From assembly GCF_963455295.1 (NCBI RefSeq), contig NZ_OY734020.1, forward strand, positions 1,984,001 through 2,048,000: DNA of 64,000 nucleotides. The letters are read 5' to 3'. The position numbers and the translations under genes are program-made. Position 1 is the first letter of the stretch. The number at the start of each line of letters is the position of its first letter. This document shows positions 15,811-40,969 of the stretch, piece by piece. This DNA is from Candidatus Thiodiazotropha sp. CDECU1. GTDB lineage: Bacteria; Pseudomonadota; Gammaproteobacteria; Chromatiales; Chromatiaceae. The notes beneath the pieces were generated by a model. The model was not told the origin of the DNA and made no database searches. It worked only from the letters and a program-made list of their open reading frames with translations.

Positions 15811-15945
15811 ATGAAAATCTCATGCGAACGCGACCTTCATTACCCCGCCCCCAGTTATGTGCTGGGAGTGGGGCAAACAGAAGTCATCGAATCTACGGTA
15901 ATCCAATCAGGCAGTTACATGATTACGAGGAGTAACGCCCAATGA
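15811..15945 (+). CDS. Candidate 44-residue small ORF coupled to the copper oxidase
   Basis: A short frame starts at the ATG at 15811, with GGAG about 8 bases upstream, and ends in a TGA that overlaps the ATG of the next gene (ATGA at 15942). It encodes 44 residues beginning MKISCERDLHYPAPSYVLG. It has no signal peptide, no membrane segment and no recognised family. The overlap suggests translational coupling, but the downstream gene also has its own GAGGAG site and a strong hairpin lies inside this frame, so it may be non-coding. Confidence 0.3.
   Translation: MKISCERDLHYPAPSYVLGVGQTEVIESTVIQSGSYMITRSNAQ
15843..15873 (+). other. Intercistronic hairpin before the first copper oxidase
   Basis: CCCC plus CCCAG on the left pair with CTGGG plus GGGG on the right around a 7-base loop, with wobble pairs and one mismatch in the middle. 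It has no T tract, so it is more likely an mRNA-stability or processing element than a terminator. It lies between the giant gene and the multicopper oxidase gene. Confidence 0.5.
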
Positions 15946-17252
15946 AAATCTTTAGCAAAAACACGCTGGCAGGCGCTATCGCTCTCACTTTGTTGGGCGT
16001 CGTGGGTTCCGCAAGTGCCGTGGTCAATGTTCAGTGTCCAGGGGATACAAATGGTGATGCTGTCATCGATGTACCTGATCCGGCGCATCCGAATGCGAAG
16101 TGTATGCATCTGATCGCCGGCGACAGCTTCGCGGTCATGTCCGACGGTAATCCCTTATACACCTTCGGTTTCGGTGACAAGACGGGTGGTGGTAATCTGC
16201 CAGACGTAGTGATCGGTAACGGTATACTCGCTGCAGAGTGGCCTGGACCCACTATCGAGTTGGACCAGGGTGATGAGTTCTTTCTCAGCCTGACCAATGT
16301 GGGAACAGTGATGCGCCCGGATCTGTTCGATCCCCATACGGTCCATTTCCATGGTTTTCCCAATGCGTCGGCGGCATTCGACGGCGTGCCGGAGGTCTCG
16401 ATCTCGATCAACATGGGTTCGACCCTGACCTACTACTACAACATCGTCGAGCCCGGCACCTATATCTACCACTGTCATGTGGAGGCGACCGAGCATATGG
16501 AGATGGGCATGTTGGCCAACCTCTATGTGCATCCCGCTCAAGATATGAGCGGCTGTGTTGATGAGAATGGCGTATCCACCGGGGCCTGTCCTGTTTCCCA
16601 GCGAGGAGGTAATGCGACGGGGCCGGGAGGCTACGTCTATAACGACGGCGACGGTACCACGGCCTGGGATGTGGAAGTGGCACTGCAGTTCTCCAGTTTC
16701 GATGCCGAATTCCATGATGCCAGTCTGTTTGTGCAACCGCTGCCTTTTGCACACCTGCACGGTAACTATCCACAGATCAACGGCCGGGGTTATCCAGATA
16801 CGGTAGTACCCGGAGACCTGCCGGCACCGACAGACAACGCAGTGCCCGTTGCGGGTCACCCGGCAGGTAAAGTGACCGGTAATCCGGGAGAGGTACTCAA
16901 CAACGGCGATCCCACCCAAACCATGGATTCGGTGATTGAAGTCGACCAGGGTCAGCGGCTGTTACTGCGCCTGTCGAATGTAGGTCTGGACCGCTTCTGG
17001 ACCATCACCGCCATGGGTCTGAAGATGAAGCTTGTCGGTGCCGGTGCACGTCAGATGCGGGGTAGCGATGGTAAGAATCTCTATCGTGAAACAGCTTCGC
17101 TCAACTTCGGCGGCGGTGAGACCACCGATGTGATAATCGATACCACCGACGTGGCGCCAGGCACCTACTTCCTGCATGCCACAGAAGTCCACCAGATGAG
17201 TAATGCAACGCAGTTGGATGGCGGCATGATCACAGAGATCGTCGTCAACTGA
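15942..17252 (+). CDS. Exported two-domain multicopper oxidase subunit with the type 1 site
   Basis: This protein has 436 residues, a clear signal peptide (cleavage near SASA at residue 26) and two cupredoxin domains. Domain 1 carries PHTVHFHG (H132, H135, H137) and YHCHVEATEHMEMGM (H177, C178, H179, H185, M190). In multicopper oxidases these supply a complete type 1 copper site (H132, C178, H185, M190) and four trinuclear-cluster histidines (H135, H137, H177, H179). Domain 2 has only weak remnants (AHLHG near 270, LHATEVHQM near 411) and no HPxHxHG or HCH pair, so the protein alone cannot form a complete cluster. The spacing HCH-x5-H differs from the usual HCH-x3-H. It overlaps a candidate small ORF and is followed 26 bases later by a complementary subunit. 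Confidence 0.88.
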   Translation: MKIFSKNTLAGAIALTLLGVVGSASAVVNVQCPGDTNGDAVIDVPDPAHPNAKCMHLIAGDSFAVMSDGNPLYTFGFGDKTGGGNLPDVVIGNGILAAEWPGPTIELDQGDEFFLSLTNVGTVMRPDLFDPHTVHFHGFPNASAAFDGVPEVSISINMGSTLTYYYNIVEPGTYIYHCHVEATEHMEMGMLANLYVHPAQDMSGCVDENGVSTGACPVSQRGGNATGPGGYVYNDGDGTTAWDVEVALQFSSFDAEFHDASLFVQPLPFAHLHGNYPQINGRGYPDTVVPGDLPAPTDNAVPVAGHPAGKVTGNPGEVLNNGDPTQTMDSVIEVDQGQRLLLRLSNVGLDRFWTITAMGLKMKLVGAGARQMRGSDGKNLYRETASLNFGGGETTDVIIDTTDVAPGTYFLHATEVHQMSNATQLDGGMITEIVVN

Positions 17253-17278
17253 GGCAGCCGAACTAGGAGATGAGATTA

Positions 17279-18655
17279 ATGAAAAGACTACTCAAACAAC
17301 CTGGACGGCTCATGGGCCTCCTGTTATTGGGACTCAGCGGCTTGCTGGCTGTGCCTCAGGCTCAGGCCGTGCACGATATCCGCGGTCTTACGCAAGCGAC
17401 CCCCAGTGGTGCGTTCAATCTGTATGCGTTTCCCTTCAATATGAACCTGCCGGAGGGTACCAGCCTCTACATGTGGGGTTTCGGTGACATGGACATGGGC
17501 GCGGGCAGTACACATCCTGCTCAGGGTGACGGTTATGCCTTACCCCAATATCCGGCACCAACTCTGATTGTCACTGAAGGTGAGGCCGTTACCATCAACA
17601 TGACCAACTATGGTGTGCCTGATCCGGTATCGATTGTGGTTACCGGCCATCACGTGACTGCCTCAGGGGGAAGTGCCGGCCTGGTCACCAATGCGGCGGA
17701 CCTGAACCAAACGGTCACTTATACCTTCACTGCAGGCTCTCCAGGCACCTATGTCTACCACAGCCTGAATGGTGACAGTCCCGGACTGCACACCGAGATG
17801 GGTCTGCTCGGGGTCATGATCGTTAGACCTAACGACAACAGTCGCACCGCCTATGGCGCCGGAACGGGTACCGACTACGATCAGGAAAACCTCTACCTGA
17901 TGACCGAGATCGATCCGGATATCCACATTCAGATGGAGAAGGGCCATTTTGCCCACTTTACCAATGCGGATCGTCACGCCAAGATCTGGTTCATCAACGG
18001 GCGAGTCTTTCCCGACCTCTTTCAGGGCGATTTCAACTCCCTGTTTCCCAACCAGCCTTATGAATCACTGGTGCTGGCCCAACCGGGGGACAAAGTGTTG
18101 GTGCGTAATGTCAACGCCGGTCATGATTCCCATCCCATGCACTACCACGGTGAGAATCTGAGATTCATCGGTCGCGATGGCAAGATGCTCACTTCAGATG
18201 GCCTGGTTTCCGACCTGGGACGTTCCGACAACACCATCAACTCCGCGCCGAAACAGACCGTGGATGCCATCTGGACATGGACAGGTAAGGGTTTGAACTG
18301 GGATATCTACGGCCACGATACCGCGCATGTCTGCATTGATAATGACGGCGATGATTTTGGTGATGTTGAGGCCGGGTCTACCTATGATCACGAATATTGC
18401 CCAGATCACGGGAAACCCCTGCCGGTCACCATGCCTGGTGTGGGTGATCTTACCCTGGGTGGTTGGTGGAGCGGCAGCCCATTCCTCGGCGATACCGGCG
18501 ATCTACCGGTGGGCGAGGGCGGACTCAACCCCTTCGGCGGCTACTTCCTGGTATGGCACTCCCATGCGGAAAAAGAGCTGACCACATTCGATATCTTCCC
18601 TGGCGGCAGCCTGGGAGCCGTGGTTGTGTTACCTCCCGGTACACCCATCGAATAA
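17279..18655 (+). CDS. Exported multicopper oxidase subunit with the complementary trinuclear half-site
   Basis: This is a cupredoxin-fold protein of about 458 residues with a signal peptide. The ATG at 17279 is preferred over 17270 because GGAG is 9 bases from it. Domain 1 is degenerate (VTGHHVTASGG, TYVYHSLNGDSPGLHTEMG). Domain 2 has HPMHYHG (H285, H288 and H290 from the chosen start) and VWHSHAEKELTTFDIFPGG (H427, H429), giving four trinuclear-type histidines. The HSH lacks cysteine, so there is no type 1 copper. The HSH...DIFPGG ending resembles, from memory, the C-terminal copper motif of large MnxG/MofA-type oxidases; I could not check this. The ligand set complements that of the previous gene, suggesting a heteromer. 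Confidence 0.85.
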   Translation: MKRLLKQPGRLMGLLLLGLSGLLAVPQAQAVHDIRGLTQATPSGAFNLYAFPFNMNLPEGTSLYMWGFGDMDMGAGSTHPAQGDGYALPQYPAPTLIVTEGEAVTINMTNYGVPDPVSIVVTGHHVTASGGSAGLVTNAADLNQTVTYTFTAGSPGTYVYHSLNGDSPGLHTEMGLLGVMIVRPNDNSRTAYGAGTGTDYDQENLYLMTEIDPDIHIQMEKGHFAHFTNADRHAKIWFINGRVFPDLFQGDFNSLFPNQPYESLVLAQPGDKVLVRNVNAGHDSHPMHYHGENLRFIGRDGKMLTSDGLVSDLGRSDNTINSAPKQTVDAIWTWTGKGLNWDIYGHDTAHVCIDNDGDDFGDVEAGSTYDHEYCPDHGKPLPVTMPGVGDLTLGGWWSGSPFLGDTGDLPVGEGGLNPFGGYFLVWHSHAEKELTTFDIFPGGSLGAVVVLPPGTPIE

Positions 18656-18673
18656 GCGCGGGAGTGCATGAAC

Positions 18674-21600
18674 ATGAAAAGGTCTAATATCATGAAGCTG
18701 AGAATCAAACCGATCGTCGCCGCCTGTGCATTGGCCATGGCCGCCGGGCAAGCGGGCGCTATCGACTACTATCTCGCGGCAAAGCAATACGATAAGGTGC
18801 TGATGCCAGGTACACCCTTGGAAACGACGGTTCCTATGTGGGGGTATGTTATCGATCCCGATAACGGTGCCAACAATGTTGGTGATTGTTATGAAGCGGG
18901 CGATGCGGCTGCACGCCAGTTGTGCGTGGACGGGTTGCCTGATCCCGCTGTTCCGGGACCACAGCTGAGCATGCCGTCCACCGACAATCAGTTGAGGATA
19001 TTCCTCTCCAATGGTTTGCCCGAAGCGACCTCTATAGTGATACCCGGTCAAGAACTGCCTTGGTCAAATAATAATAACGGTCCGACCTTTGTCCGTCCGA
19101 ACGGTACGCTGAGGATCGGTAATCGAAATGGTATGAACCAGAAAATGCGTTCCTACGGTCGAGAGGCCGCAGCGAATGGTGGTATCAGGAGTTACCGATG
19201 GACCAACTTCCGTGCCAATCCCATTAACGAAACCGGCACCTTCATCTATCATACGGGCACCCATCCCCAGAAGCAGCTCTACATGGGGCTGTTTGGAGCG
19301 GTTACCAAGGATTTCATCCCCGGTGAAGTCTATGAAGGTGTGCCGTACGCTTCCGATACCACCCTCTTCTACAGTGATATCGACCCGGCATTTAACGCAG
19401 CGGTGGTAGCGGGTACCCTCGAGACAGCCATCGAGCGCCATCCAAGCTGGTTCCTGATCAACGGTGAACCCTATGTGCCCGGCACCACGCCGGATATATT
19501 GGGTATGGCCACCAATCAGCCCAATCTGATTCGTTTCGCAAGTGCCACAACCGAGAAGCACGTACCTGTGCTGCAGGGTCTCTACGGCACCATCCATGGC
19601 GAGGACGGCATACAGTACAACTGGCAGGACAGTGTGGCCAATACCACGACACCTGCACCGATTCAGCAGTACTCGATCGGCCTGCCCCCCCTCAAGACCA
19701 AGGATGTGATTGTCAATCCTGCCGCTGCAGACAGGTATGCAATCTATGACGGTAATGGCTACATGACCAATCCGAGCGATCCGGACAATGAGGCCGTGGG
19801 TGATACAACCGGTGGTATGCTGCGTTTCATCAGCTTTACCCAGGGTGCCAATCAGCCGCCAGTTACCGTGGCGGATCAGGTGGAGATTTCCATACCGGAA
19901 CTCGCAGCCGGAGCTGTCTCAGTGGATGTGGATGTGTTGATCAACGATTCAGATCCTGAAGGCGCAGCACTGGGTGTTCTCGACACGGTTGATCAGTTTG
20001 TCGGCACCAATCTTGTCATCGATTGGACATGCTCCTCCACAACCGACAACTGTACCGCTGTAGCGACCGCCACCGATCCCTGGACCTCGCCGGTGGTAAA
20101 TGATTTTGCCTATACGGCTACAGATTCCAATGCAGCAACAACTGACACGGCAGGAACCGTCACAGTGACTGTGGTGCAGAATATGGCACCTGTCCCAGCT
20201 GACGATACCCTCGCGGCCGTGACAGATGCGCCGATCAACTTCAACCTCTACACCGATCTGGTGCTGCCCAACGACACAGATGCTGAAGACACCCTGTCGG
20301 TTACAGCAGTGGATGTGAATGCAGCCACGGATCTGGATGCAGGTGTGGTGAGCTGTCCCGATCTGGTGCTGGGCGATTGTACCTACACACCGCCTGACCC
20401 GTTACCGGCAACCATACCTTTCGACAAGACCTTCACCTATACAGTGTCTGATGGTGTGAACCCTGACTCTGCACCGGTGACAGTCACCATCAATGTGGAT
20501 CTGCCGGGTGATCCCGCAATAGCCAATGACGATCCCTTGTATGCAACGGATGAAGACACAATCCTGAACGTCGATGCACTGACGGGTGTGCTGGCCAACG
20601 ATACGGATAGTGCCAGCGGACCATTGGCAGGAACCGAGACGGCCGTGTTGGTTGCCGGTAGCGGACCATCCAATGCCGCCAACTTTGTCCTCAATAGCGA
20701 CGGTTCGTTCGACTATGAGCCGTTTGTCGACTTTAACGGTACCGACAGCTTTCAGTATGTGGTGAATAACGGTGTCGACAGTCTGCCTGCCACGGTGACC
20801 ATCACGGTTAATCCCGTGGCTGATCCACCGGTTGCAGTTGCTGACAGCTTTGTGATGGCTCAAAACGCAGTGCTCGATGAAGCGGCGCCGGGCGTCCTGG
20901 TCAATGATACAGACCCGGAAGACGATCCGCTGACTGCAGTGCTGGTGAGCGGCCCAAGCTGTGCCTGGACTACCGGACCGAATGGGGCCAACGCATTTGT
21001 GCTCAACGCTGACGGTTCATTCCACTATGAACCGATTCCGGGTTGGAACAGCACATTGCCGGATACCAATACCATCTGTCCGGGTGTCACAGGTGATGAC
21101 TCATTCACTTATGTGGCAAATGACGGTGTGGACGACAGTGCAACTGCTGTGACAGTGACTATCAGCGTCAATCCTCAGACAGCACCGACGGCAGTCAATG
21201 ACACGTTCATTCTGGATACGCCGGTCGATACGATCTTTACCTTTGAGGGTGAGCTCGTCAATGCGTTGTATGAGATCCCGGCTCCTGGCGTGCTCGATAA
21301 CGATACCTATATCCCGCCGCAGACGCTGACCGAAGTAAATGATCCGGATAATCTGACGCCATCATTGGCGGATGACGGAACCATCAATTTCGAGATTGAC
21401 AATATCGATACGGGCATTATCGCCACGCTGGAGTATCAGATTACAGATGACACCGGTGCGACGAGTAACATTGCTCAGGTGGATCTGGTCAGACAAATCG
21501 CCGTGGAGAAAGCGGGATTCAACCTGAACGAAGATGGCGGTATCGAAGTCGGCGGTAATCCAGCCAATGACGACTGGCGGATTGAAGGTACTGTAGATCC

Positions 21601-21898
21601 CACGGTGATTCCGCTAGGCACTGAGATCTACGCGTTCATCATCAGAGAAGGCGTTGTCGATCCTATCCCGATCAATACCCCAGCGGATATCGACGGGAAT
21701 AATGATAATGGCACTGTCTTTGACGAGAATAGCTGGAGAATCCTGATCAACGACGTAGGCATCGACGGACCGCGGGGCGATTCACCCCCTGTCAACGGTG
21801 TTAGTGACAAGATCCGTATCGAGGCCCATGTGGTTAACCCCGATACCAGTATCACTGTCATTACCTATAATAATGTGACGATCAGTGTAGTAGACTAG
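18674..21898 (+). CDS. Cupredoxin-fold protein fused to about five Ig/cadherin-like domains
   Basis: This is an exported protein of about 1074 residues (signal peptide ending AAGQAGA). The ATG at 18674 fits the GGAG at 18661-18664. Residues up to about 395 look like two cupredoxin domains of the same lineage as the two preceding genes, with TGTFIYHTGTHPQKQLYMG and the shared phrases WFLINGEPY and MPGTPLETTVPMWGY, but most copper ligands are absent. From about residue 397 to the end there are about five tandem bacterial Ig/cadherin-like domains with repeated VLANDTD, NSDGSFDYEP and FTYVANDG phrases. The catalytic capacity is probably lost, and a structural or surface-attachment role is inferred. 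It ends the copper-oxidase run and is followed by a strong terminator. Confidence 0.82.
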   Translation: MKRSNIMKLRIKPIVAACALAMAAGQAGAIDYYLAAKQYDKVLMPGTPLETTVPMWGYVIDPDNGANNVGDCYEAGDAAARQLCVDGLPDPAVPGPQLSMPSTDNQLRIFLSNGLPEATSIVIPGQELPWSNNNNGPTFVRPNGTLRIGNRNGMNQKMRSYGREAAANGGIRSYRWTNFRANPINETGTFIYHTGTHPQKQLYMGLFGAVTKDFIPGEVYEGVPYASDTTLFYSDIDPAFNAAVVAGTLETAIERHPSWFLINGEPYVPGTTPDILGMATNQPNLIRFASATTEKHVPVLQGLYGTIHGEDGIQYNWQDSVANTTTPAPIQQYSIGLPPLKTKDVIVNPAAADRYAIYDGNGYMTNPSDPDNEAVGDTTGGMLRFISFTQGANQPPVTVADQVEISIPELAAGAVSVDVDVLINDSDPEGAALGVLDTVDQFVGTNLVIDWTCSSTTDNCTAVATATDPWTSPVVNDFAYTATDSNAATTDTAGTVTVTVVQNMAPVPADDTLAAVTDAPINFNLYTDLVLPNDTDAEDTLSVTAVDVNAATDLDAGVVSCPDLVLGDCTYTPPDPLPATIPFDKTFTYTVSDGVNPDSAPVTVTINVDLPGDPAIANDDPLYATDEDTILNVDALTGVLANDTDSASGPLAGTETAVLVAGSGPSNAANFVLNSDGSFDYEPFVDFNGTDSFQYVVNNGVDSLPATVTITVNPVADPPVAVADSFVMAQNAVLDEAAPGVLVNDTDPEDDPLTAVLVSGPSCAWTTGPNGANAFVLNADGSFHYEPIPGWNSTLPDTNTICPGVTGDDSFTYVANDGVDDSATAVTVTISVNPQTAPTAVNDTFILDTPVDTIFTFEGELVNALYEIPAPGVLDNDTYIPPQTLTEVNDPDNLTPSLADDGTINFEIDNIDTGIIATLEYQITDDTGATSNIAQVDLVRQIAVEKAGFNLNEDGGIEVGGNPANDDWRIEGTVDPTVIPLGTEIYAFIIREGVVDPIPINTPADIDGNNDNGTVFDENSWRILINDVGIDGPRGDSPPVNGVSDKIRIEAHVVNPDTSITVITYNNVTISVVD

Positions 21899-22603: not shown

Positions 22604-25600
22604 ATGCTTGATATAAAATCCGTGGTTCGTTTTTTACCTCTGCTCATGTTGCTTGTTCCATTTCAAAGTGGAGCGGCAGTGACTGTCTATTGCTGTGATG
22701 CAACCGCGGAAGCGCAGTACATCCAGGACCTCAATGCACTTCAAACGGTCTCAGTCGATCTGGCAACCGAGAGTTTTGAAGGGGATGCATGGAACAATAC
22801 CCGAACAACGCCTCAGCTGACTGTTACAAATCAAAGCATCACCTGGGGGGCCACTTCGAATGAGGTTGCGGGCATCAGGACCAGTACAGGTGGTGGGGAT
22901 ACCCACGAAGGCAGCTATATTCTGTTTGCGGTAGATCAGGATAATGCCCATTTGACACCTGACAATATCACTCTGACCGCCAACGGCATTACGCTGTATG
23001 GCGTTGGAGGCTGGTTTCGGAGTTCCGGTGGTCCCGAAATAGTCTTCACTACGGATGGGGATGCTGTCGATTTCACAGGACAGCAATCCAGCGTGTTTGA
23101 CTGGACATTTCTCGGATTCATCGACGACGGTGGATTCACAACCCTGCTCATCGATACCGCGGATACGATTGGCGATGATATTCGCATCTTCTTTTCCGAC
23201 GATTTCACCATCGCCGCACAAGCCGGGGCCTTCCCTGGGCAGAATCTGCAATTCAGCAGTGTGAGTTACAACGCCAGCGAAAATGCGGGTTCCGCCGCAA
23301 TCACCGTGACACGCTCCGGTGGCAGCAGCGGCGCGCTCTCAATCGATTACGCCACCACCGGTGACGGAACAGCGACGCCAGGTCAGGACTTTACCACAAC
23401 CTCCGGTACACTTGACTTCGCGGAGGGCGAAACCAGCAAACAGTTTACCGTTGAGTTGCTCGATGATGCCATTTTCGAAGGTGACGAGACCGTCGGTCTT
23501 CTGCTCACCGGCAGCAGTGTTGGTGCGCTCAATACCGCTACCTTGACGCTCACGGAAAACGATGCACAGCCCTTCGGCAGTGTGGAATTCAGTGGCTCAA
23601 ACTATCAAGTGGGTGAGGATGCCGGGAGTCTGACCGTCAGTGTGCAGAGAAACGGCGGCAGTGTCGGTGCCGGATCTGTCGACTACAGCGTAAGTGACGG
23701 TACGGCTACTGCAGGGAGTGATTATTCAGCCACATCCGGATCTCTGGCCTTTACCGACGCCCAGATCAGCGGCACTTTTACCATAGACATTCTTGACGAT
23801 GCATTACAAGAGGGTACCGAATCAATTATCCTCAGTTTGAGCAATGCAGTCAGTGTTTCACTCGGTGCTGGAGACTTCGCGGAAGTCCATATCGTGGATG
23901 ATGAGCCTACACCGGCCATGGGCAGCATTCAGTTCAGCGGTTCTGCGTACAGTGTTTCTGAAACTGCCACTGAGATCGCAATTCCTGTGGTAAGAATCAG
24001 CGGTAGCATGGGGGCTGTCAGTGTCACCTGTACTACCACGGATTCCAGTGCCACGGCTGGCAGTGACTACGTGGCGACACAAAGTACGATCAACTTTGCA
24101 GCAGGCGAGACCCTGCAGAACTGTCGTATACCGATTACCGATGACAGTGCATATGAAAATGACGAGGTGTTCAATGTCACCCTTAGTGCTCCTGCCGGGG
24201 GAGCGGTTCTGGGTACAACTTCGTCAGCAAATGTAACCATCGAAAGCAATGATTCCGCACCAGCCGCAGGCAGTCTTCAATTCGGATTATCCAGTTTTGA
24301 GCAGGTAGAGAACGGGTCGGTTGCCACCATAACAGTCGCGCGTAGCGGTGGCAGCAGCGGAACGGTAACGGTGGATTATGCCACTGTGAACGGTACCGCC
24401 ACCGCAGGCAGTGACTACACCGCAGCCAGCGGCAGTCTCACCTTTGCAGACGGGGTGACATCCAGCTCATTCCAGGTTTCGATTCTTGATGACAACAGCT
24501 ATGAGGGTGACGAGACTGTTTCTTTACAGTTGAGTAATCCGGGTGGCGGTGCCGTGATCGGAAATGTAGGAAGTGCTGTACTCACACTTCAGGATGATGA
24601 GCAAGCACCTGCCTCAGGCACGTTGGTCTTCGAGCTGGATGGTTTTTCAGCGAATGAGTTTGACGGTAGTGTCAGGATCAATGTCGTACGTCAGGGCGGC
24701 AGCAGCGGCGCGGTTTTGGTCAATTACGCCACCAGTGACGGTACCGCCATGGCTGGCAGCGACTATTCCGTAGCTAGTGGCACGCTCTCATTCGCGGAAG
24801 GGGAGATTTCACAGGGCTTCGATGTGACGCTTGCAGACGACGCGGATTTTGAAGGCAGCGAAACCATTAATCTGACCCTCAGTGATCCCTTCGGTGCCGT
24901 TCTAGGGAGTCCGTCTTCAGCGACGATCACACTCTCTGACGATGATGATCCTCCAGCAGGTGGCGCCTTGGATTTTTCTGCCGGGAACTACACCGTTTCC
25001 GAGGATGGAACCAGCGTCACAATATCCGTAACCCGCAGTGGCGGATCCACCGGAGCTGTTTCGGTTGACTATGCCACTTTGGATAACAGCGCGGTGGCGT
25101 CGTCAGACTATACCTTTGCTACCGGCAGTATCAGTTATGCTGACGGTGAATCGGGCAGCAAGTCGTTCGATGTTCAAATCGTTGATGACACAGATCTGGA
25201 AGGGAATGAGCTGGTCAATCTGGTGCTTACCAATGTACAGGGTGGTGCAGTGCTGGGTGGACAGAGTCAATCTTTCCTCACTATCACTGATGATGAAGCG
25301 CAATCCGCTTCGGCAGTACTCGGTTTTTCGGTGAACAGTCTCTCTGTCAGTGAAGACTCGGGCAATGCATCCATCACCATCACTCGAACCACTTCAACAT
25401 CAGGCACCATTACTGTTGATCTTTCTGTAGACTCCTCAGATGCGACGGCGGGAATCGATTACAACGTCACCACTGGAACCCTGCAATTCAATGACGGTGA
25501 AACTGAAAAGGTTTTCACAGTCCAGATCCTTGACAATACCGTAACCGATGGCAATAGAACGATTACCTTCACACTTGGTAATGCAACTGGCACTGCTGTC

Positions 25601-25792
25601 ATCGATTCCAACAATGGTACCCTGACTTTGACGATCGTTGATGACGAATCAAGTTCCGGTGGTGACTCCGGAGGCGGTGGTGGTGGAGGAAGTCTTGATC
25701 TGCTCGTGCTGATGCTGATGCTGGTGATCGTCCTCCAATACAGTCGATTGTATGATTACTCCCTATTGCGGAGATTATTTCTACAACGATAA
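22604..25792 (+). CDS. Secreted seven-repeat Calx-beta protein with GlyGly-CTERM-like tail
   Basis: This 1062-residue protein has a signal peptide (cleavage after QSGAA). The N-terminal ~200 residues resemble a choice-of-anchor domain (ATESFEGDAW, GVGGWFRSSGG, FDWTFLGFIDD). From about residue 220 there are seven Calx-beta repeats, each with an F/YSVSEDAG-type start, RSGGSSGAVSVDYAT, TATAGSDY and DDxxxEGDET motifs, which normally bind calcium. The last 47 residues are Ser/Gly-rich (SSSGGDSGGGGGGGS), then a hydrophobic helix, then Arg-containing residues. This layout matches GlyGly-CTERM, a signal processed by rhombosortase in type II secretion substrates. The type II cluster lies 7 kb downstream. 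Confidence 0.85.
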   Translation: MLDIKSVVRFLPLLMLLVPFQSGAAVTVYCCDATAEAQYIQDLNALQTVSVDLATESFEGDAWNNTRTTPQLTVTNQSITWGATSNEVAGIRTSTGGGDTHEGSYILFAVDQDNAHLTPDNITLTANGITLYGVGGWFRSSGGPEIVFTTDGDAVDFTGQQSSVFDWTFLGFIDDGGFTTLLIDTADTIGDDIRIFFSDDFTIAAQAGAFPGQNLQFSSVSYNASENAGSAAITVTRSGGSSGALSIDYATTGDGTATPGQDFTTTSGTLDFAEGETSKQFTVELLDDAIFEGDETVGLLLTGSSVGALNTATLTLTENDAQPFGSVEFSGSNYQVGEDAGSLTVSVQRNGGSVGAGSVDYSVSDGTATAGSDYSATSGSLAFTDAQISGTFTIDILDDALQEGTESIILSLSNAVSVSLGAGDFAEVHIVDDEPTPAMGSIQFSGSAYSVSETATEIAIPVVRISGSMGAVSVTCTTTDSSATAGSDYVATQSTINFAAGETLQNCRIPITDDSAYENDEVFNVTLSAPAGGAVLGTTSSANVTIESNDSAPAAGSLQFGLSSFEQVENGSVATITVARSGGSSGTVTVDYATVNGTATAGSDYTAASGSLTFADGVTSSSFQVSILDDNSYEGDETVSLQLSNPGGGAVIGNVGSAVLTLQDDEQAPASGTLVFELDGFSANEFDGSVRINVVRQGGSSGAVLVNYATSDGTAMAGSDYSVASGTLSFAEGEISQGFDVTLADDADFEGSETINLTLSDPFGAVLGSPSSATITLSDDDDPPAGGALDFSAGNYTVSEDGTSVTISVTRSGGSTGAVSVDYATLDNSAVASSDYTFATGSISYADGESGSKSFDVQIVDDTDLEGNELVNLVLTNVQGGAVLGGQSQSFLTITDDEAQSASAVLGFSVNSLSVSEDSGNASITITRTTSTSGTITVDLSVDSSDATAGIDYNVTTGTLQFNDGETEKVFTVQILDNTVTDGNRTITFTLGNATGTAVIDSNNGTLTLTIVDDESSSGGDSGGGGGGGSLDLLVLMLMLVIVLQYSRLYDYSLLRRLFLQR

Positions 25793-25827
25793 ACAGCGGC
25801 GGTGGATCCTTTCGATAGAAGGTGGTA

Positions 25828-26622
25828 ATGATGTCGAAAAAAGCGTGGAGAAGTGAGACGTTAAACAATAGTTTACGTTTCATGCTAAAGACTCTGGTGT
25901 TCTCATGTGTACTATCCACTTCGCTGAATGGAGTCGCAGAGGAGCTACCGAGCATCGCGAAGTCTGAAAATGACAAGCCGAGCTTCATCCCGCCATTCAA
26001 AATGGACTGCGTAACGAAACCGACCAAAAGCCCGACTCTTGGTGAGCGCTTCAAGCTGGTAGCAAACATGGATGACCATTCCCATCATGACCATGCCAAG
26101 CATATGAAAATGATGGAGAGCAGGAACTATAAGCTGAATTCTGCGAGTTACTCAGTTCCTGATGTGGAGTTGACTTCGCACAGAGGAGAACAGAAGCGAT
26201 TGTCTGATGTGCTGAATAGCGATAAGCCGATCATGTTGAATTTCATATTTACCACCTGCACGACCATCTGCCCTGTCCTTTCGGCCAGTTTTCACCAGGT
26301 TCAGGAGATTCTCGGGGAAGAGAGCGACAGGGTTGATATGGTCTCGATTACTATCGATCCTGATTACGATACGCCGGAACAGCTGATGAAGTATTCGAAA
26401 CGGTTTAAGGCCGGTGATCAATGGCAGTTCTTTACAGGAAGCTACCAGGATGTGGTAATGGTGGAGAAGGCCTTTGATATCTTCCGTGGTTCAAAAATGA
26501 ACCATGAACCAATCACCCTCATACGCGATCGAAACGGGGAACAGTGGACTCGTATCAATGGCCTGGCCAGTGCTGAGGATATTGTAAAAGAATACCGTAA
26601 AATAACAGCAGGAAGCCAATGA
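25828..26622 (+). CDS. SCO1/SenC-family copper chaperone
   Basis: This is a membrane-anchored periplasmic protein of about 264 residues in the SCO1/SenC family, which delivers copper to oxidases. The thioredoxin-like domain has the copper/redox motif TTCTTICP (C144 and C148 from the ATG at 25828) and the distal ligand histidine in GSKMNHEPITLI (about H226). Unusually, a His/Met-rich loop DDHSHHDHAKHMKM (about residues 83-96) precedes the fold and is a candidate extra copper site. An ATG at 25831 is equally possible; the ribosome binding site is GAAGGTGG. Its stop overlaps the next gene by 4 bases. Its place right after the copper-oxidase genes suggests it metallates them, which is inference. 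Confidence 0.88.
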   Translation: MMSKKAWRSETLNNSLRFMLKTLVFSCVLSTSLNGVAEELPSIAKSENDKPSFIPPFKMDCVTKPTKSPTLGERFKLVANMDDHSHHDHAKHMKMMESRNYKLNSASYSVPDVELTSHRGEQKRLSDVLNSDKPIMLNFIFTTCTTICPVLSASFHQVQEILGEESDRVDMVSITIDPDYDTPEQLMKYSKRFKAGDQWQFFTGSYQDVVMVEKAFDIFRGSKMNHEPITLIRDRNGEQWTRINGLASAEDIVKEYRKITAGSQ

Positions 26623-29732: not shown

Positions 29733-32630
29733 TCAGGGTTGTTCTGCAGGTGATTCTGACAGAACGGTTTCGGATATTGCTTCACTGTTAGCGCTATCTT
29801 CTGCCTTCATTGGTGTTTGCTGTGAATCTGTAGGTGTAGCAGTCTCAGTCTCATCACTGGTGACGCTGCATGGGCCTGCATCTGCAGAGTCAGCGGCGCC
29901 GCACTCTGAACCCTTGTGGTTTTCCGAATTCTCCTCCATGGCATCGTCCCTTGCTTGATTCTTCGAACCTTGCTTTAGGTCGTGCAAACCGAGTTGATCT
30001 AAAAGGGTGCCGCTGTTGTAACCCTTGAGAGATAGATCAAATATCTTGAGCGATGAACCGGTGCCTGGTTCATTACCCGGTTGGTTCAGCTTGGAATTCT
30101 TTTTCCGCGCCGCACCGGATTTCGATAATCCCGAAGTCAGACTGTTGCTACTGCTGCTGGGAGCTGTGTGGATTGAGACAAAAGGCAGGGAATCGTCATC
30201 GATGATCCTGATGATTGCCGCAGATGGATTGGTAATGCTGGTATTTCCGCTTGCATCAGAGAGTTGCAGCGTGAAACTGCTCTCCTGTTCATAGAGGCCA
30301 TCATTTATAATTTCGATAGTGAGAGTTCGACGTGTCACGCCCGCTGAAAAAGTCAGGGTGCCGCTTATTGCGTGGTAGTCCGCTTTATTCGTTGCAGACC
30401 CGTCCACTGTCGTATATTTAACCGATGCACTGGTTTCAAGGTCCCCTGATCGAATCACTGATAATGTAACTTTACTGCTCGACTCATTGACCTCATAACT
30501 GACTGCATCCAGATAGATGGATACGCTATCTGTGTCCGGATCATCATCAAGGATGGTGACTGTGGTGGAGGCGGGTTCAGCAATGGATGCGCCGTCACTG
30601 ACTGATGTAAGGAGTATTTGAAAGGTCTCGTTGCCTTCATATAGCTTGTCATCGACCAGTTCGATGTGAATCTGCTTTTGAGTTTCTCCCGTTCGAAAGC
30701 GAATGGTTTCGCTATCAGCAATATAGTCGACACCGGCATCGGCGCTTTTTGCCAGCAGCTGGTATTCAACATCCACCACACCGGTAGTGCCTTCCGTGCG
30801 TATCACATCAATGATCGCTTGCTGTTTTGATTCGTTGACGGCATAGGCAACAGTACCGAATGAGATTGCACCGGCCCCGTCATTATCCAGAATAATTACT
30901 TTGGCCTCTGCTTCATCCCCAAGGGTGGCGTTGCCATCTACATCCGATAGGGCGAGGTAGAAGGATTCGTTCTCTTCATCTATTTCATCATCATGAATAG
31001 AAACTTCGAAACTGCGTAGTGTCTCTCCTTCGTGAAATTGCAGTGTGCCCTTGCTGATGGAGTAGTCACGACCTTGCTTGGCTTCATCCTCGATAGTTGT
31101 GTATTCAACCCTGACTTCTCCTTTGCTGCCACCAGAGCGTCGCACAGTGACTATCAGTTTTTGGGTATCCTCATCCACGCTATAGAGCGATTCGCTGAAT
31201 TCGATTCGGCTGTTGTCATTTGATGCGTAGGCATTCTCAAGCAACGCGTACGCTGCAGCTACATCCAACATTCCATAGCCGTAATTGTCATCTGTGCCTG
31301 TTTCACCAAGATCGACTGCAGAGTCATAGAGTGCTGTTTCAATCTGGGACAGGGATACATCGGGAAATGCGCTTTTAAGCAGTGTCATTGCACCTGTCAC
31401 ATGGGGTGCGGAGAATGAGGTGCCGGAGACTATGTTATAGGCATTGGGAAGCAGATCTGTGGTAAAGATCAGGCTGCCAGGGGCAACCAGTTTGGGGAAT
31501 ACTCCGCCGTCACAGGCCCCGGGGCCGCGGCTGCTGAGTAGATCGATTTCATTGGATTGATCCACCGATCCGACAGAAACCGCGCCAGGGTCGTTGGCCG
31601 GGCTGATGCTCGATTCATCGGAAGGACCGAAGTTACCGGCAGAGAAGACGACCCCGATGCCGGCCTCACGGAGTATCTGGATATCCTCGCTGAACTCCTG
31701 GAAACATTGATTGATGGTAGTGGAAAAGCCCCATGAATTGTTGACCAGGTCGGGGGCGTCATCAGTGAGCGGGTCGCCGTCCGGATCGAGTATCCACTGG
31801 AAGGATTCATGGATCGCGCTGAGTGTGGACTCGTTGGCGTTATCGAATATCTTTGCGGCAATCCATTTTGCTTCGGGTGCCATGCCGATTTGATAGCCGC
31901 TCTCATCACCGCCCAGTATGATGCCGAGGGCCTGGGTACCATGGCCCACTGTATCGGTGGGTTGCTCATGTTGCTGATAGGGGTCGAACCAGCTATTCGC
32001 ACCGCCGCGCCATTTACCGATCAGGTCGGGGTGATTGAGCTCCACACCGGAATCCATGATGGCGACAGTGACACCTTCACCAGTAACACCTTGCTGCCAG
32101 AGCTGATCGGTCCTGATGTTGATGAGATTCCATAGGGGATCGGTGCTAAGTCCTTCGACCCGGTTCTCGTTCATGCTCAATCGCATATCGATTGTGATTC
32201 CCTCGACCTCGGCCATTGCGGCGATCTCGGGTACGAGATCGGCAGGCAGTTCGAGGGCCACGGCATTGATGGTCCAAAGGGATTTCAGGCGTGTCTTCAC
32301 ACCATGGTTGTGCAATTTTCTGACAAGCGTCGCTTTGGGTTTGGCAAGTTGTTCTTTGAGGCCGTTCAACAGCCTCTTGCGAAATATCTTTTTTTGTCTG
32401 GATTGTGACTTGCCAAGTGCCGGCTCATATTGATGTTTTTTATTAATTATGTCGCGAAAGTCATTGATATTGTATTCTTTTTTAAATTTTACTATGACAG
32501 GTATAGTGGAGGTGTGTTTGATTTGTGCGGCCAGCTTATCCACATCCGCAGTTAATCCTGCCGCACCATTGAGCACGGGCAGATAGAACAGCCCCGCCCA
32601 GATTACGGCAGTAAAAAGTCGCTTAAGCAT
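29733..32630 (-). CDS. Secreted subtilisin-like (S8) protease with three Calx-beta repeats
   Basis: This 965-residue protein has a signal peptide (ending LNGAAG). Residues about 40-150 form an I9-like pro-region, and the S8 catalytic domain follows with D193 in VAIMDSGVELNHPDL, H230 in TVGHGTQ, N333 in VFSAGN and S405 in SGTSFSAPH. All the catalytic residues are present. Three Calx-beta repeats follow from about residue 478 (IEFSESLYSVDEDT, ISFGTVAYAVNES, YEVNESSSKVTL). The C-terminal ~130 residues are low-complexity and acidic and carry no GlyGly-CTERM tail. It converges on the sensor gene. The repeats are the same type as in the Calx-beta protein nearby, suggesting a common secretion or processing pathway, possibly the downstream type II system. 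Confidence 0.92.
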   Translation of the reverse strand: MLKRLFTAVIWAGLFYLPVLNGAAGLTADVDKLAAQIKHTSTIPVIVKFKKEYNINDFRDIINKKHQYEPALGKSQSRQKKIFRKRLLNGLKEQLAKPKATLVRKLHNHGVKTRLKSLWTINAVALELPADLVPEIAAMAEVEGITIDMRLSMNENRVEGLSTDPLWNLINIRTDQLWQQGVTGEGVTVAIMDSGVELNHPDLIGKWRGGANSWFDPYQQHEQPTDTVGHGTQALGIILGGDESGYQIGMAPEAKWIAAKIFDNANESTLSAIHESFQWILDPDGDPLTDDAPDLVNNSWGFSTTINQCFQEFSEDIQILREAGIGVVFSAGNFGPSDESSISPANDPGAVSVGSVDQSNEIDLLSSRGPGACDGGVFPKLVAPGSLIFTTDLLPNAYNIVSGTSFSAPHVTGAMTLLKSAFPDVSLSQIETALYDSAVDLGETGTDDNYGYGMLDVAAAYALLENAYASNDNSRIEFSESLYSVDEDTQKLIVTVRRSGGSKGEVRVEYTTIEDEAKQGRDYSISKGTLQFHEGETLRSFEVSIHDDEIDEENESFYLALSDVDGNATLGDEAEAKVIILDNDGAGAISFGTVAYAVNESKQQAIIDVIRTEGTTGVVDVEYQLLAKSADAGVDYIADSETIRFRTGETQKQIHIELVDDKLYEGNETFQILLTSVSDGASIAEPASTTVTILDDDPDTDSVSIYLDAVSYEVNESSSKVTLSVIRSGDLETSASVKYTTVDGSATNKADYHAISGTLTFSAGVTRRTLTIEIINDGLYEQESSFTLQLSDASGNTSITNPSAAIIRIIDDDSLPFVSIHTAPSSSSNSLTSGLSKSGAARKKNSKLNQPGNEPGTGSSLKIFDLSLKGYNSGTLLDQLGLHDLKQGSKNQARDDAMEENSENHKGSECGAADSADAGPCSVTSDETETATPTDSQQTPMKAEDSANSEAISETVLSESPAEQP

Positions 32631-33137: not shown

Positions 33138-35366
33138 ATGAGCAAGAGAGAACACAATCTGCTGACTCGGCTTTTGCCAATGGTAGTGTCACTACTGTTG
33201 GTATCATGCGCCCAGCAACCCGAAATCGATCAAACATCCGATGGCAGCAGAGTGATAACTCCCTATCCGACGGAGAGGCCACCGGTCACTGTTTCCGGCG
33301 ATGATGATGAACAGGAGTTGGTGCTTTCCCAGCAGGCCGTGCAGGAGCCTGAGTTCTTTGTTCGCGAGGGAAGTGGCAGGTTTCTCAAACAGGGGCAGTC
33401 GACTAAAAAAACAGCTCAGCCGGCGCGTGGCGATATCACGCTTAATTTTGAAGGCGTGGATCTGCGTGAAGTGGTCAAGGTCATCTTCGAGGAGATACTG
33501 CGGGAAAACTATCTGATCGATGACAAGGTTCAGGGTCAGGTGACCATCCATACAACCTACCCGGTCAGCACCGATGCGGTATTGCCGATTCTTGAGAATA
33601 TCCTGCAGATGAACGGTGCTGTGATGGTGCGCAACGGCGCACTCTACAAAATCCTGCCCGCTGCAGATCTGAAGGGCATGGCCCTGAAACCATCGGTCGG
33701 TCAGGGTAAGGCCAGGATGAAGGCGGGCCAGGGGGTGCAGATAGTGCCCTTGAGATATATCACGGCCACCGAAATGAAGAAGGTATTGGAGAGCTTCGCC
33801 TCTCCCACGGAACAGATCCGTATCGATAAAGGCCGGAACCTGCTGATTCTCACCGGCTCCTTCCAGAAGATCAATAATCTGCTGCAGACCATCGAAATGT
33901 TCGATGTGGACTGGCTCAGTGGTATGTCATTTGCCTTGATACCGTTAAAGGCCACCGATGCCAAGACCATCACGGATGAGCTTAAACATATTGTTGGGGA
34001 AGGCGAGGCGTCACCCCTGGCCGGGATGATCAAGCTGATCCCTATCGATCGCCTGAACGCGGTGATGGTGATCAGTCAGCAGCCCAGGTATATCAAGGAC
34101 GTGCGCAGATTGATCAGCCAGTTCGATCAGGGTAGTGACAAATCACCCGATCGCCGTCTCTATGTCTATCACCTGAAAAATGGCAAGGCGGAGAATATAG
34201 CCGCTATCCTGCAGAATATATTCGGTAATGAGGTTTCAACCCCGGCCTCGTCTGGTGGTTTGAGCAGCAGTGATCCGCTGTTGCGTTCAAATGTCCGTTC
34301 CCCCACTACAACCGGGATCGATCTGAAAAACAGCAATGCCGACAGCCAGGCCGCGCTGACCAAGGATCAGCCAGTCGCTACCGCGGCAGCCACCACCACT
34401 GCCGGTATAGCCAGCTCGGCGTCCCAAGGTGGATCGGACGCCACGGCGACCATCATCGCCGATCCGGATAACAACGCTATTCTGGTGATGGCCAGTCCGA
34501 AGGATTATCAGAAGATCAAAGCAACCATCAACCGCTTGGATGTGTCGCCCAAGCAGGTGCTTATCGAAGCGACCATCGCCGAGGTGCAGTTGAGCGACAA
34601 TCTGAGTTACGGGGTGCGTTGGTTCTTCAATGGCTCCACAGGGAGCGGTCGGCCCTATAAAGGCGCATTGGGCACCCTGCCCGGCGATGTATCCGGTGGC
34701 GATGGATTTTCCCTGGGGCTCTTCAACAACGCCAGCGACCTGAAGGTATTCTTCGATATCCTGGAGACCGAGTCCTCGGTGAAGTTTCTCTCGGCACCGC
34801 AGATTATGGTCATCGACAATCAGACGGCCAGTTTCCGGGTGGGTGACCAGATACCAATCGTGACCCGTTCATCCCAGAGTACTACCGATCCCGATGCCCC
34901 GATTGTGTCAGAGGTACAGTTCCGGGATACCGGCACCCTATTGCAGGTCACACCACGTATCAATGAAGGTGGGATGGTCACCCTCGAGGTCAGCCAGGAG
35001 GTCAGTACCCCGGGTACCGCCCCGGCTATCGGAGGTGGTGGCAATGTCTCCATTTCCCAGCGCACCATTGAGAGTACTGTCATCGTCCACGATGGTCAGA
35101 CAGTGGTCCTGGGCGGCCTGATTCGCGAAAGCAGCTCTGGTGGCAAAACTGGGATCCCAGGTTTGATGCATATTCCCCTGGTTGGTAACCTCTTTGGCAG
35201 CACCACCAAGGATGTCAGCCGTACCGAGTTGATCGTGACATTGACTCCAAAGGTGGTACGCAACCCACAAGAGGCCTACGATATATCTCAGGAACTGCGA
35301 GAAAAGATCCGCGACGCCGCACTGTTTCACGATGACTTTCAACGGCGTCGGGCATCCAGCAAGTAA
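33138..35366 (+). CDS. gspD: Type II secretion outer-membrane secretin GspD
   Basis: This 742-residue protein forms the outer-membrane channel of the type II secretion system. The N-terminus is a lipoprotein signal with lipobox LLVSC, so the protein is probably lipidated, unlike many GspD proteins. N-domains follow (INTH-like TLNFEGVDLREVVKVIFEEI, then several N1-N3 repeats with NLLILTG and DPDNNAILVMAS). A Ser/Ala/Thr-rich linker lies at about residues 375-435. The secretin domain includes VLIEATIAEVQL and VVLGGLIRESSSGGKTGIPG with IPLVGNLFGS. It opens the gsp cluster and has its own upstream region. Confidence 0.96.
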   Translation: MSKREHNLLTRLLPMVVSLLLVSCAQQPEIDQTSDGSRVITPYPTERPPVTVSGDDDEQELVLSQQAVQEPEFFVREGSGRFLKQGQSTKKTAQPARGDITLNFEGVDLREVVKVIFEEILRENYLIDDKVQGQVTIHTTYPVSTDAVLPILENILQMNGAVMVRNGALYKILPAADLKGMALKPSVGQGKARMKAGQGVQIVPLRYITATEMKKVLESFASPTEQIRIDKGRNLLILTGSFQKINNLLQTIEMFDVDWLSGMSFALIPLKATDAKTITDELKHIVGEGEASPLAGMIKLIPIDRLNAVMVISQQPRYIKDVRRLISQFDQGSDKSPDRRLYVYHLKNGKAENIAAILQNIFGNEVSTPASSGGLSSSDPLLRSNVRSPTTTGIDLKNSNADSQAALTKDQPVATAAATTTAGIASSASQGGSDATATIIADPDNNAILVMASPKDYQKIKATINRLDVSPKQVLIEATIAEVQLSDNLSYGVRWFFNGSTGSGRPYKGALGTLPGDVSGGDGFSLGLFNNASDLKVFFDILETESSVKFLSAPQIMVIDNQTASFRVGDQIPIVTRSSQSTTDPDAPIVSEVQFRDTGTLLQVTPRINEGGMVTLEVSQEVSTPGTAPAIGGGGNVSISQRTIESTVIVHDGQTVVLGGLIRESSSGGKTGIPGLMHIPLVGNLFGSTTKDVSRTELIVTLTPKVVRNPQEAYDISQELREKIRDAALFHDDFQRRRASSK

Positions 35367-35434
35367 TCGACTTTGAACTGGTGACCCTTGGCTGTGTGTT
35401 GAGGGTCAGCCCAGCCACCTGAGAGGTCACGCGT

Positions 35435-37180
35435 GTGAGACAGGAGAACAGCCAGATCGCCAGGGAGAACCCCGCTTCCGAGGATGATGCTGGCACACTC
35501 AGATATTTGGAATATCCCCTCTCTGTCGCCCTGGTGGAGGGTGGTCGACTCAGCGCCACTGATGCTGAACGTGCTGTTCGCCTGAGAGAGAATCAGCAGA
35601 GTGACCAGTCAATTGGCACCATCCTGTTACAGCTGGGCCTGATTTCCGACCGGGATCTCGCCGTAACCCTGGCCACGCTCTGTGGTGTACCGGTTATCGA
35701 AAAGAAGGCCTATCCCGATCTTGCCCATATCAGCGAGAATATCTCTTCCAACTTCCTCAAACAGCACCGCTTGGTGGTGTTTGAGGAGCAGGAGGACCAC
35801 CTGGTGGCGATCATGGTCGATCCCACCGACCGGTACGTCATCGATGCGCTGGAACTGATCAGCGGCAAGCAGATCAGGTTGGTGATCGGTATCGCCTCCG
35901 AGATCGACGAGGTGATCCAGACCCTGTTCAGCGAGCTGATGAAGGAAGAGGGGGGGGATGATGATGGGGGTACGGAACATCAGTTGCTGCTGGATGATGT
36001 GGAGCAGCTCAAGGAACTGGCCAGTGAAGCGCCGGTCATCAAGATGGTCAACCAGATTATCCAGCGGGCGGTCTCATCCAAGGCGTCGGATATCCATATC
36101 GAGCCCTTCGAAAATAGCCTGAAGATACGCTATCGGGTCGACGGTCTGCTGCGCGAAACCGAATCAACCGCGGTCAACCTGGCCCCGGCACTGATCTCAC
36201 GCATCAAAATTATGGCCAATCTCAACATCGCGGAACGCCGCCTGCCACAGGATGGGCGTTTCAAGGTCAGGGTGCACGGCGCCACCCTGGATATGCGTGT
36301 CTCCACCGTGCCCACGCTGCATGGCGAGAGCATGGTGCTCAGATTACTCCAGCGGGATCATGTGAATCTCGATTTTGCCAGCCTCGGTTTTGACAGCATG
36401 CTCGAGCAACGGCTATTGGAGATACTCGATCGTCCCCACGGTATCGTGGTGGTGACCGGTCCTACCGGCAGTGGTAAGACCACTTCTCTATACGCCGCGC
36501 TCAACTATCTCAATCGACCGGAACGAAAGATCCTCACGGTGGAGGATCCGGTGGAATACAACATCGAAGGGGTCAATCAGATCCAGGTCAAGCCGAACAT
36601 CGGCCTCAACTTCAGCTCTGCCCTGCGGTCCATCGTGCGCCAGGATCCGGACATCATCATGATAGGTGAGATTCGTGATCAGGAGACCGCGCAGATCGCC
36701 GTCCAGTCGGCGCTTACCGGACACCTGGTCCTCTCCTCGCTGCATACCAATGATGCGGCCGGCAGTATCACCCGGTTTATTGATATGGGAATCGAGCCAT
36801 TCCTGCTGACCTCAACGGTGAATGCCGTGGTGGCGCAACGCCTGGTTAGAAACCTCTGTCCCGATTGCAAGCAGCCCTATGATCCTCCACCGGAGGTGGC
36901 GGCGCGCTTCGAGTCATTCCCGGGTGGAGCGACCCTTTATAAGGCTGTAGGTTGTGAGCACTGCAGTGGCAGTGGATATCGTGGGCGTAGCGCGATTATC
37001 GAAATGATCGAGCTGTCGGAGGGATTACGCTCGCTGATTCTGCAGGGCGGGGATAAGAATGCTCTGGCTGAATGCGCAAAACGCGAGGGTGCCCGTTCCA
37101 TGTACGAGGATGGTTTGTTAAAAGTGATGCAGGGTATCACCACCCTTGAAGAGGTGCTGAGAGTCACTCAGGAGAACTGA
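35435..37180 (+). CDS. gspE: Type II secretion ATPase GspE
   Basis: This 581-residue cytoplasmic hexameric ATPase powers pseudopilus assembly. It has an N-terminal MshEN/GspE domain, the core with Walker A GPTGSGKTT (about residues 342-350), the Asp box, Walker B IIMIGEIRDQETAQIA, the His box LSSLHTNDAAGS and the zinc tetracysteine (CPDC and CEHC) near the C-terminus. The start is a GTG at 35435; no suitable ATG is nearby. It follows gspD by 68 bases. Confidence 0.96.
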   Translation: MRQENSQIARENPASEDDAGTLRYLEYPLSVALVEGGRLSATDAERAVRLRENQQSDQSIGTILLQLGLISDRDLAVTLATLCGVPVIEKKAYPDLAHISENISSNFLKQHRLVVFEEQEDHLVAIMVDPTDRYVIDALELISGKQIRLVIGIASEIDEVIQTLFSELMKEEGGDDDGGTEHQLLLDDVEQLKELASEAPVIKMVNQIIQRAVSSKASDIHIEPFENSLKIRYRVDGLLRETESTAVNLAPALISRIKIMANLNIAERRLPQDGRFKVRVHGATLDMRVSTVPTLHGESMVLRLLQRDHVNLDFASLGFDSMLEQRLLEILDRPHGIVVVTGPTGSGKTTSLYAALNYLNRPERKILTVEDPVEYNIEGVNQIQVKPNIGLNFSSALRSIVRQDPDIIMIGEIRDQETAQIAVQSALTGHLVLSSLHTNDAAGSITRFIDMGIEPFLLTSTVNAVVAQRLVRNLCPDCKQPYDPPPEVAARFESFPGGATLYKAVGCEHCSGSGYRGRSAIIEMIELSEGLRSLILQGGDKNALAECAKREGARSMYEDGLLKVMQGITTLEEVLRVTQEN

Positions 37181-37274
37181 CCCGCACTTCTCACCAGGCG
37201 GACCCTACCAACATTAGTAAACAGGTGGCTTCCTTTCATGATAAGACGTTTATCGGACAGAATGCGGGTTAAGC

Positions 37275-40065: not shown

Positions 40066-40067
40066 TC

Positions 40068-40943: not shown

Positions 40944-40969
40944 ACACCGAAACCCGTTAAAATCATCTG

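Follow-up and report, generated by a model that had tools for sequence, protein, structure and literature searches.

The 64,000-nucleotide stretch of the lucinid-clam symbiont Candidatus Thiodiazotropha sp. CDECU1 analyzed here (contig NZ_OY734020.1, positions 1,984,001 to 2,048,000; hereafter the window) raises the question of whether a single multicopper oxidase (MCO) active site can be divided between the products of different genes. Three successive intact open reading frames on the same strand, each with a start and a stop, encode proteins that we designate P1, P2, and P3 (Table 1), and the original prediction, made from the sequence alone, had read them as one MCO split over three adjacent polypeptides. 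Profile and alignment comparisons revealed that P1 carries a type 1 copper site and one half of a trinuclear copper site, and that P2 carries the other half. Based on these sequence comparisons, we estimate a probability of about 0.75 that P1 and P2 jointly form one trinuclear site of a heteromeric MCO. For a P1-P2-P3 ring that includes P3 as the third unit, the odds appear roughly even.

P1 has, exactly as originally listed, a complete type 1 ligand set (H132, C178, H185, and M190) and 4 trinuclear-type histidines (H135, H137, H177, and H179); all of these ligands lie in its first domain (D1). The trinuclear-type histidines of P2 (H291, H293, H430, and H432) are all located in its second domain (D2). 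For P2, the motifs HPMHYHG and HSH and the lack of a type 1 cysteine had been recognized correctly, but the numbering given (288, 290, 427, and 429) was three too low: position 288 is the first histidine of HPMHYHG, and position 290 is a methionine. No HxH pairs were found in the P1 D2 domain in the profile alignments or the joint alignment. P3, which had been described as cupredoxin-like with few ligands, does show cupredoxin homology (its Cu-oxidase match scores 20 bits, narrowly under the Pfam cut-off of 21) and has no conserved copper ligand set in 18 of 18 rows. In the joint alignment, both half-sites occur together in none of the 17 P1, 16 P2, and 18 P3 rows, that is to say, no row holds a complete eight-histidine set in either P1 or P2 alone.

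The ligands were then compared across relatives with a profile score >250, with identical rows removed and the window counted as one row. All 8 P1 ligands are identical in 69/69 aligned rows. P2 residues H288, H291, and H293 are histidine in 70 of 71 rows, the remaining row being a gap, and H430 and H432 in 68 of 71, the remaining three being gaps; these gaps come from truncated or broken copies. The best PDB profile matches of both P1 and P2 are 3g5w (Nitrosomonas europaea blue copper oxidase) and 2zwn (a metagenome laccase), which we take to be type C two-domain MCOs, an assignment that fits the ligand positions seen. Against the P1 profile, the D1 set of 3g5w aligns fully and its D2 pairs face non-histidines; against the P2 profile the pattern is reversed, with the D2 pairs matching and the D1 ligands absent. 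The ligands kept by 3g5w and 2zwn are missing from the P1 D2 domain and the P2 D1 domain. As controls, a three-domain MCO of the same genome (G000:C1:2146027) carries all motifs in one chain, and the aligned segments of 3g5w and 2zwn combine the D1 set with the first D2 pair on a single polypeptide, their second D2 pair being visible in the separate profile alignments. The half-sites of P1 and P2 are complementary, and neither protein is complete alone.

The arrangement recurs in distantly related bacteria. One scan of genome contigs yielded 39 loci with P2 relatives, to which all counts per 39 refer. By their record titles, these loci point to seven phyla: they come from Gammaproteobacteria (including Thioploca, Thiorhodococcus, and Thiohalocapsa), a Thiobacillus metagenome-assembled genome (MAG), a Rhodospirillales MAG, Nitrospirae, Verrucomicrobia, Planctomycetes, Myxococcales, Desulfosarcina and another deltaproteobacterium, and Holophagae. 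The closest named P2 relative, at 97% identity, belongs to a lucinid symbiont whose host is Ctena orbiculata; the titles of most near matches give Candidatus Thiodiazotropha. In 37 of the 39 loci, P1, P2, and P3 succeed one another on a single strand as they do in the window, a few with broken copies (in L059, P1 is cut by the contig start). The other two are interrupted by contig ends, L070 ending after P2 and L072 holding P2-P3. The triad is also present on the megaplasmid of the laboratory strain Cupriavidus metallidurans CH34 (L145, NC_007974.2 1336097-1355488), where P3 is joined to P4, the large protein encoded upstream of P1 in the window.

The search for the same adjacent pair that the original prediction had proposed was positive: P1 and P2 both adjoin and co-occur in independent genomes. 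Of 210 genomes in the window's order, 34 have P1 (E 1e-40) and 35 have P2 (E 1e-10); the extra P2 genome (G162) has a weak match to the two-gene family described below, and the two sets otherwise consist of the same 34 genomes. Among 245 genomes of the Nitrospirota group, 13 have P1, and these 13 are also the ones with P2; P1 is present in 15/15 genomes chosen for having P2. The P2 profile matched 19 of the 369 genomes of the class at a looser cut-off (about half of these 19 have the two-gene family only), 2 of 294 genomes of the Planctomycetes group, and 11 of 117 genomes of the family of the Thiobacillus MAG, the centre genome being included in each of these three counts.

Damaged copies in some relatives might suggest that the genes are merely degenerate or broken MCO genes, produced by an assembly or annotation artefact or by a decaying operon: P2 of L067 (8884-10170) has an in-frame stop, the frame is broken in P3 of L036, P3 of L041, and P2 of L070, and L049 has a partial tandem duplication of P1/P2. 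This explanation is hardly credible: the three frames of the window are open over 436, 461, and 1076 aa, the ligands are invariant, and independent genomes, that of C. metallidurans CH34 among them, show the same arrangement.

A second split form emerged from 16 weaker two-domain matches fetched as would-be complete controls. Of these, 12 hold the D2 half only and 3 the full D1 set only; the remaining match, L126, is a complete MCO of greater length. A gene that we designate B, with the D2 half, is followed by an adjacent gene A, with the type 1 site and the D1 half, in 13 of 14 regions; the 14th region is cut by a contig end. These 14 regions come from the window's class as drawn by GTDB. At the cut-offs used, no third unit and no P4, P5, SCO1, or P8 was found in the flanks of the two-gene regions (P5, SCO1, and P8 are downstream neighbours of the triad in the window; Table 1). 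Plasmids of Indioceanicola profundi and of Arthrobacter sp. FW305-BF8 carry similar B-A pairs; the class and plasmid loci of the family are L129-L141, L143, L144, and L147. We count the complementary halves of the two-gene form in 13 of 14 regions as support for a shared site. In some B proteins (L139, L143, L144, and L147), the second D2 pair reads HCH; judging from this motif, the cysteine could belong to a further type 1-like site.

Several results weigh against a shared site or a single complex. (i) AlphaFold gave no confident docking of the units, either for joined P1-P2-P3 of L064 (predicted local distance difference test score [pLDDT] 71.9, predicted template modelling score [pTM] 0.56) or for joined P1-P2 of L060 (pLDDT 75.9, pTM 0.53), and both models had low pLDDT around or just after the P1 HxHG motif; (ii) in Foldseek comparisons, the whole models fitted ceruloplasmin poorly, with a template modelling score (TM) by query length of 0.23-0.29 and root mean square deviations of 14-18; (iii) no P1-P2 fusion was seen among the loci read; (iv) a divergent genome of the Nitrospirota group (L096, 7266-10145) has P1-P2 and no P3-like gene within the flanks examined, and P3 may therefore not be essential; and (v) within limited flanks, SCO1 was found near the triad in only 17 of 39 loci and P8 in only 14 of 39.

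The AlphaFold result would agree with two separate functions, P1 carrying electrons through a lone type 1 copper and P2 being a copper protein in its own right; the histidine pairs would then be relics or ligands of other metals. We consider this unlikely. All 4 trinuclear-type histidines of each protein are invariant over loci whose titles point to seven phyla while their equivalents in the other domains have been lost, and relics would hardly be perfect on both sides in the same genomes. The top matches listed by Foldseek for the two models include ceruloplasmin, coagulation factors, and MnxG (ranks 17 and 22), with laccases and ascorbate oxidase close behind. The TM by query length did not exceed 0.29 for ceruloplasmin, the coagulation factors, and MnxG, and their likeness was discounted; we take these matches to reflect a shared multi-cupredoxin make-up of the models and no matching ring.

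What P3 contributes can be approached through its relation to the other units. P1, P2, and P3 are mutually homologous by profile comparison, P3 matching P2 over both domains with an hhalign probability of 100.0% and P1 with 99.5%. In a tree of 88 units, P1, P2, P3, A, and B each form one group; P2 groups with P3 (support 99/94), and A, P1, and the complete oxidases group together (100/97), which may reflect either an old split or a shared loss of the type 1 site. In this tree, the complete oxidases are represented by partial sequences, 3g5w, 2zwn, and one P3 row have an odd composition, and A and B of L144 have long branches; in its 88-row alignment the second D2 pair is unaligned, and that pair was judged for the two-gene family from the joint alignment and the motifs. 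In VIA-align comparisons, which mainly addressed the P2 part, the fold predicted for P2 in two relatives best matched a type C two-domain oxidase structure; the fold of P1 is assigned from sequence profiles. According to available passages of one source, the trinuclear coppers of two-domain MCOs are coordinated by residues of two protomers, and type C members have the type 1 copper in the N-terminal domain (PMC13151041). Type C two-domain oxidases, which are trimers with an interprotomer site, stand nearest to P1 and P2; therefore, a homotrimer turned heteromer is the simplest reading.

P1 and P2 could also share the site in a P1-P2 complex or a mixed trimer (e.g., two P1 and one P2) with P3 as a separate scaffold, a version that overlaps with our favoured reading on the shared site itself. 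It would suit the two-gene family, which has no third unit in the flanks examined, the P1-P2 pair of L096 without an adjoining P3, and the lower conservation of P3, which is the least conserved unit by mean pairwise identity per domain (43-47%, compared with 54-65% for P1 and P2). We regard it as possible and rather doubtful: P3 follows P2 in 37 of 39 loci, the other two being cut or without flank, the P3 unit adjoins P2 in 19 of 20 further regions, and its similarity to P2 extends across both domains.

Under our favoured and by far simplest reading of a P1-P2 site, P1, P2, and P3 would be diverged copies of a type C-like two-domain MCO, in which three different proteins have replaced the identical protomers of an ancestral trimer, presumably as a 1:1:1 ring. 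P1 would supply the type 1 copper, where electrons enter, and 4 histidines from its first domain; P2 would supply the remaining 4 histidines from its second domain and thereby complete, in contact with P1, one oxygen-reducing site; and P3, having lost both half-sites, would probably fill the third position and, by means of its repeats, act as an anchor. Such an enzyme would likely be secreted or located at the cell surface, act with P4, and perhaps be loaded by the SCO1 protein. Metal ions such as Fe(II) or Mn(II) are its likeliest substrates, since a protein reminiscent of MofC (P8) adjoins the triad in part of the loci.

Table 1. Positions, in the window, of the triad, its ligand motifs, and neighbouring features.
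Feature	Positions	Strand	Description
P4	9741-15797	+	large upstream protein; weak beta-helix and carboxypeptidase-regulatory-like matches
P1	15942-17252	+	436 aa, two-domain cupredoxin; Pfam Cu-oxidase_3/Cu-oxidase; type 1 site and one trinuclear half-site
P1 C32 to C54	16035-16103		cysteines flanking a DTNGD stretch near the N-terminus
P1 H132 to M190	16335-16511	+	ligand stretch, all in the N-terminal (first) domain
P2	17270-18655	+	461 aa, two-domain cupredoxin; other trinuclear half-site; without type 1 cysteine
P2 H288-H293 (HPMHYH)	18131-18148	+	holds first half-site pair, H291/H293
P2 H430-S-H432	18557-18565	+	second half-site pair
P3	18668-21898	+	1076 aa; two-domain cupredoxin unit without ligand set, then cadherin/Big_9 repeats (Pfam)
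P5	21957-22583	+	small conserved protein, no function assigned
Calx-beta protein	22604-25792		large, with Calx-beta repeats
SCO1/SenC-type copper chaperone	25822-26622	+	Pfam PF02630, E 6.8e-20
P8	26619-28253	+	one CETCH heme motif; Peripla_BP_6 25.6 bits, below cut-off 31.7; reminiscent of MofC
Subtilase	29733-32630	-	with Calx-beta repeats
Type II secretion cluster	33138-42046		secretin, GspE, GspF, T2SSJ- and T2SSK-like, PilN-like

Among the neighbours of the triad, P4 is located upstream of P1 in 36 of 39 loci, and P5 follows P3 in 38 of 39. Four of the 39 loci (L058, L063, L064, and L069) encode P4 and P1 as one continuous frame, as do L107 and L110, the latter being a second copy within the genome of L069. 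In-frame P4-P3 fusions were found in L093, L094, L095, L101, L103, L105, L145 (C. metallidurans CH34), and L146 (Paraburkholderia). The P1 frame of L106 was considered as a P4 fusion and rejected, P4 there being in another frame, and it is not counted. That P4 is joined to P1 in some loci and to P3 in others is consistent with a single complex. The CxxCH motif is present in the P8 homologues of the 16 loci listed.

Further features were observed in or near the triad. Near the P1 N-terminus, C32 and C54 are each conserved in 35 of 39 rows and possibly form a disulfide with a calcium loop. The large Calx-beta repeat protein lies after P5, and its relatives adjoin the triad in the Thiodiazotropha loci inspected; a subtilase with Calx-beta repeats is encoded on the other strand, beyond the SCO1, P8, and kinase genes. 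The type II secretion cluster downstream of the oxidase genes could export the oxidase proteins.

Read gene by gene, the triad appears as odd or incomplete oxidases, and in one annotated Paraburkholderia record all three products are called "hypothetical protein". An O2-reducing copper enzyme of sulfur-oxidizing symbionts, Nitrospirae, and the metal-tolerant C. metallidurans may therefore be overlooked. If the shared site is real, the enzyme would be a naturally occurring example of a homotrimer that became a heteromer in which a single site survives, and a candidate for oxidizing Fe(II) or Mn(II) at the surface. Going further, we lean towards the view that the triad and the B-A pair represent an unrecognized MCO class, in which one site is shared by different gene products in at least two layouts (P1-P2-P3 and B-A) across many phyla. 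This class would have arisen from one-chain homotrimers turned heteromers, which freed the other subunits for surface anchors or partner domains, and its three-gene form would be a surface metal-oxidation machine.

Comparison with known systems places the triad nearest to two-domain oxidases. Copper nitrite reductases (NirK) are two-domain trimers with the type 1 copper in D1 and an interprotomer copper site, and they are not known to have the 8 trinuclear-type histidines that P1 and P2 together carry. Membership of P1 and P2 in this family was rejected, their TIGR02376 scores being 32.3 and 46.8 bits, respectively, against a cut-off of 296.3. The original prediction that the three proteins mimic a six-domain oxidase of the MnxG/ceruloplasmin type is not supported. 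According to passages of one source, ceruloplasmin, Fox1, and MnxG likewise comprise six cupredoxin domains with a single trinuclear site; however, they are single chains with the trinuclear site between D1/D6 or D2/D3 and type 1 coppers in even-numbered domains (PMC3600357). By contrast, the triad consists of three separate chains, and its type 1 site belongs to D1 of P1, the first domain of its unit. MnxG resembles the triad in needing partners, MnxE and MnxF, which are described in passages of PMC5622069 as having no similarity to MCOs. Heterodimeric fungal laccases such as Pleurotus POXA3 likewise act with a second protein, but in the passages available that partner is a small protein and the copper sites are not described as divided (PMC3129051).

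The original prediction knew of no described oxidase divided in this way, and none with a divided trinuclear site was found in the titles and abstract openings of the open-licence PMC papers listed. "Heterotrimer" is used only of a reaction product in a passage of PMC10673308, copper terms are absent from PMC8788666, PMC10734462 contains only a BLAST remark on manganese oxidases, and the passages seen of PMC11886801 and PMC10304878 make no mention of the Cupriavidus genes. Two "novel MCOs" are named in passages on Candidatus Manganitrophaceae (PMC9040806). Three tandem MCO genes had, however, been printed in 2017 for Sideroxydans (S. lithotrophicus ES-1), described as MCOs of unclear function in the passages concerned (PMC5566968). 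As in the window, that set comprises three MCO-like genes, SCO1, and a CxxCH protein with a periplasmic-binding-like part. In that paper it is predicted to be extracellular, and its description in these passages mentions no split active site. Compared by gene content, it is probably the same system. The MofA/OmpB clusters described there share SCO1 and MofC-like neighbours with the triad, as compared by description, and differ in that the activity resides on a single MCO protein (PMC5566968).

The closest counterpart remains the type C two-domain MCO. Both have two cupredoxin domains per unit, with half-sites in D1 and D2, and the N-terminal position of the type 1 site is shared by P1 in 69/69 rows, P2 and P3 having no such cysteine. 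The difference is that both halves reside in one chain there, whereas here they are separate gene products accompanied by a third unit with neither. The P1-P2-P3 set should work like an MCO and looks descended from the two-domain kind, departing from it in the one-chain feature.

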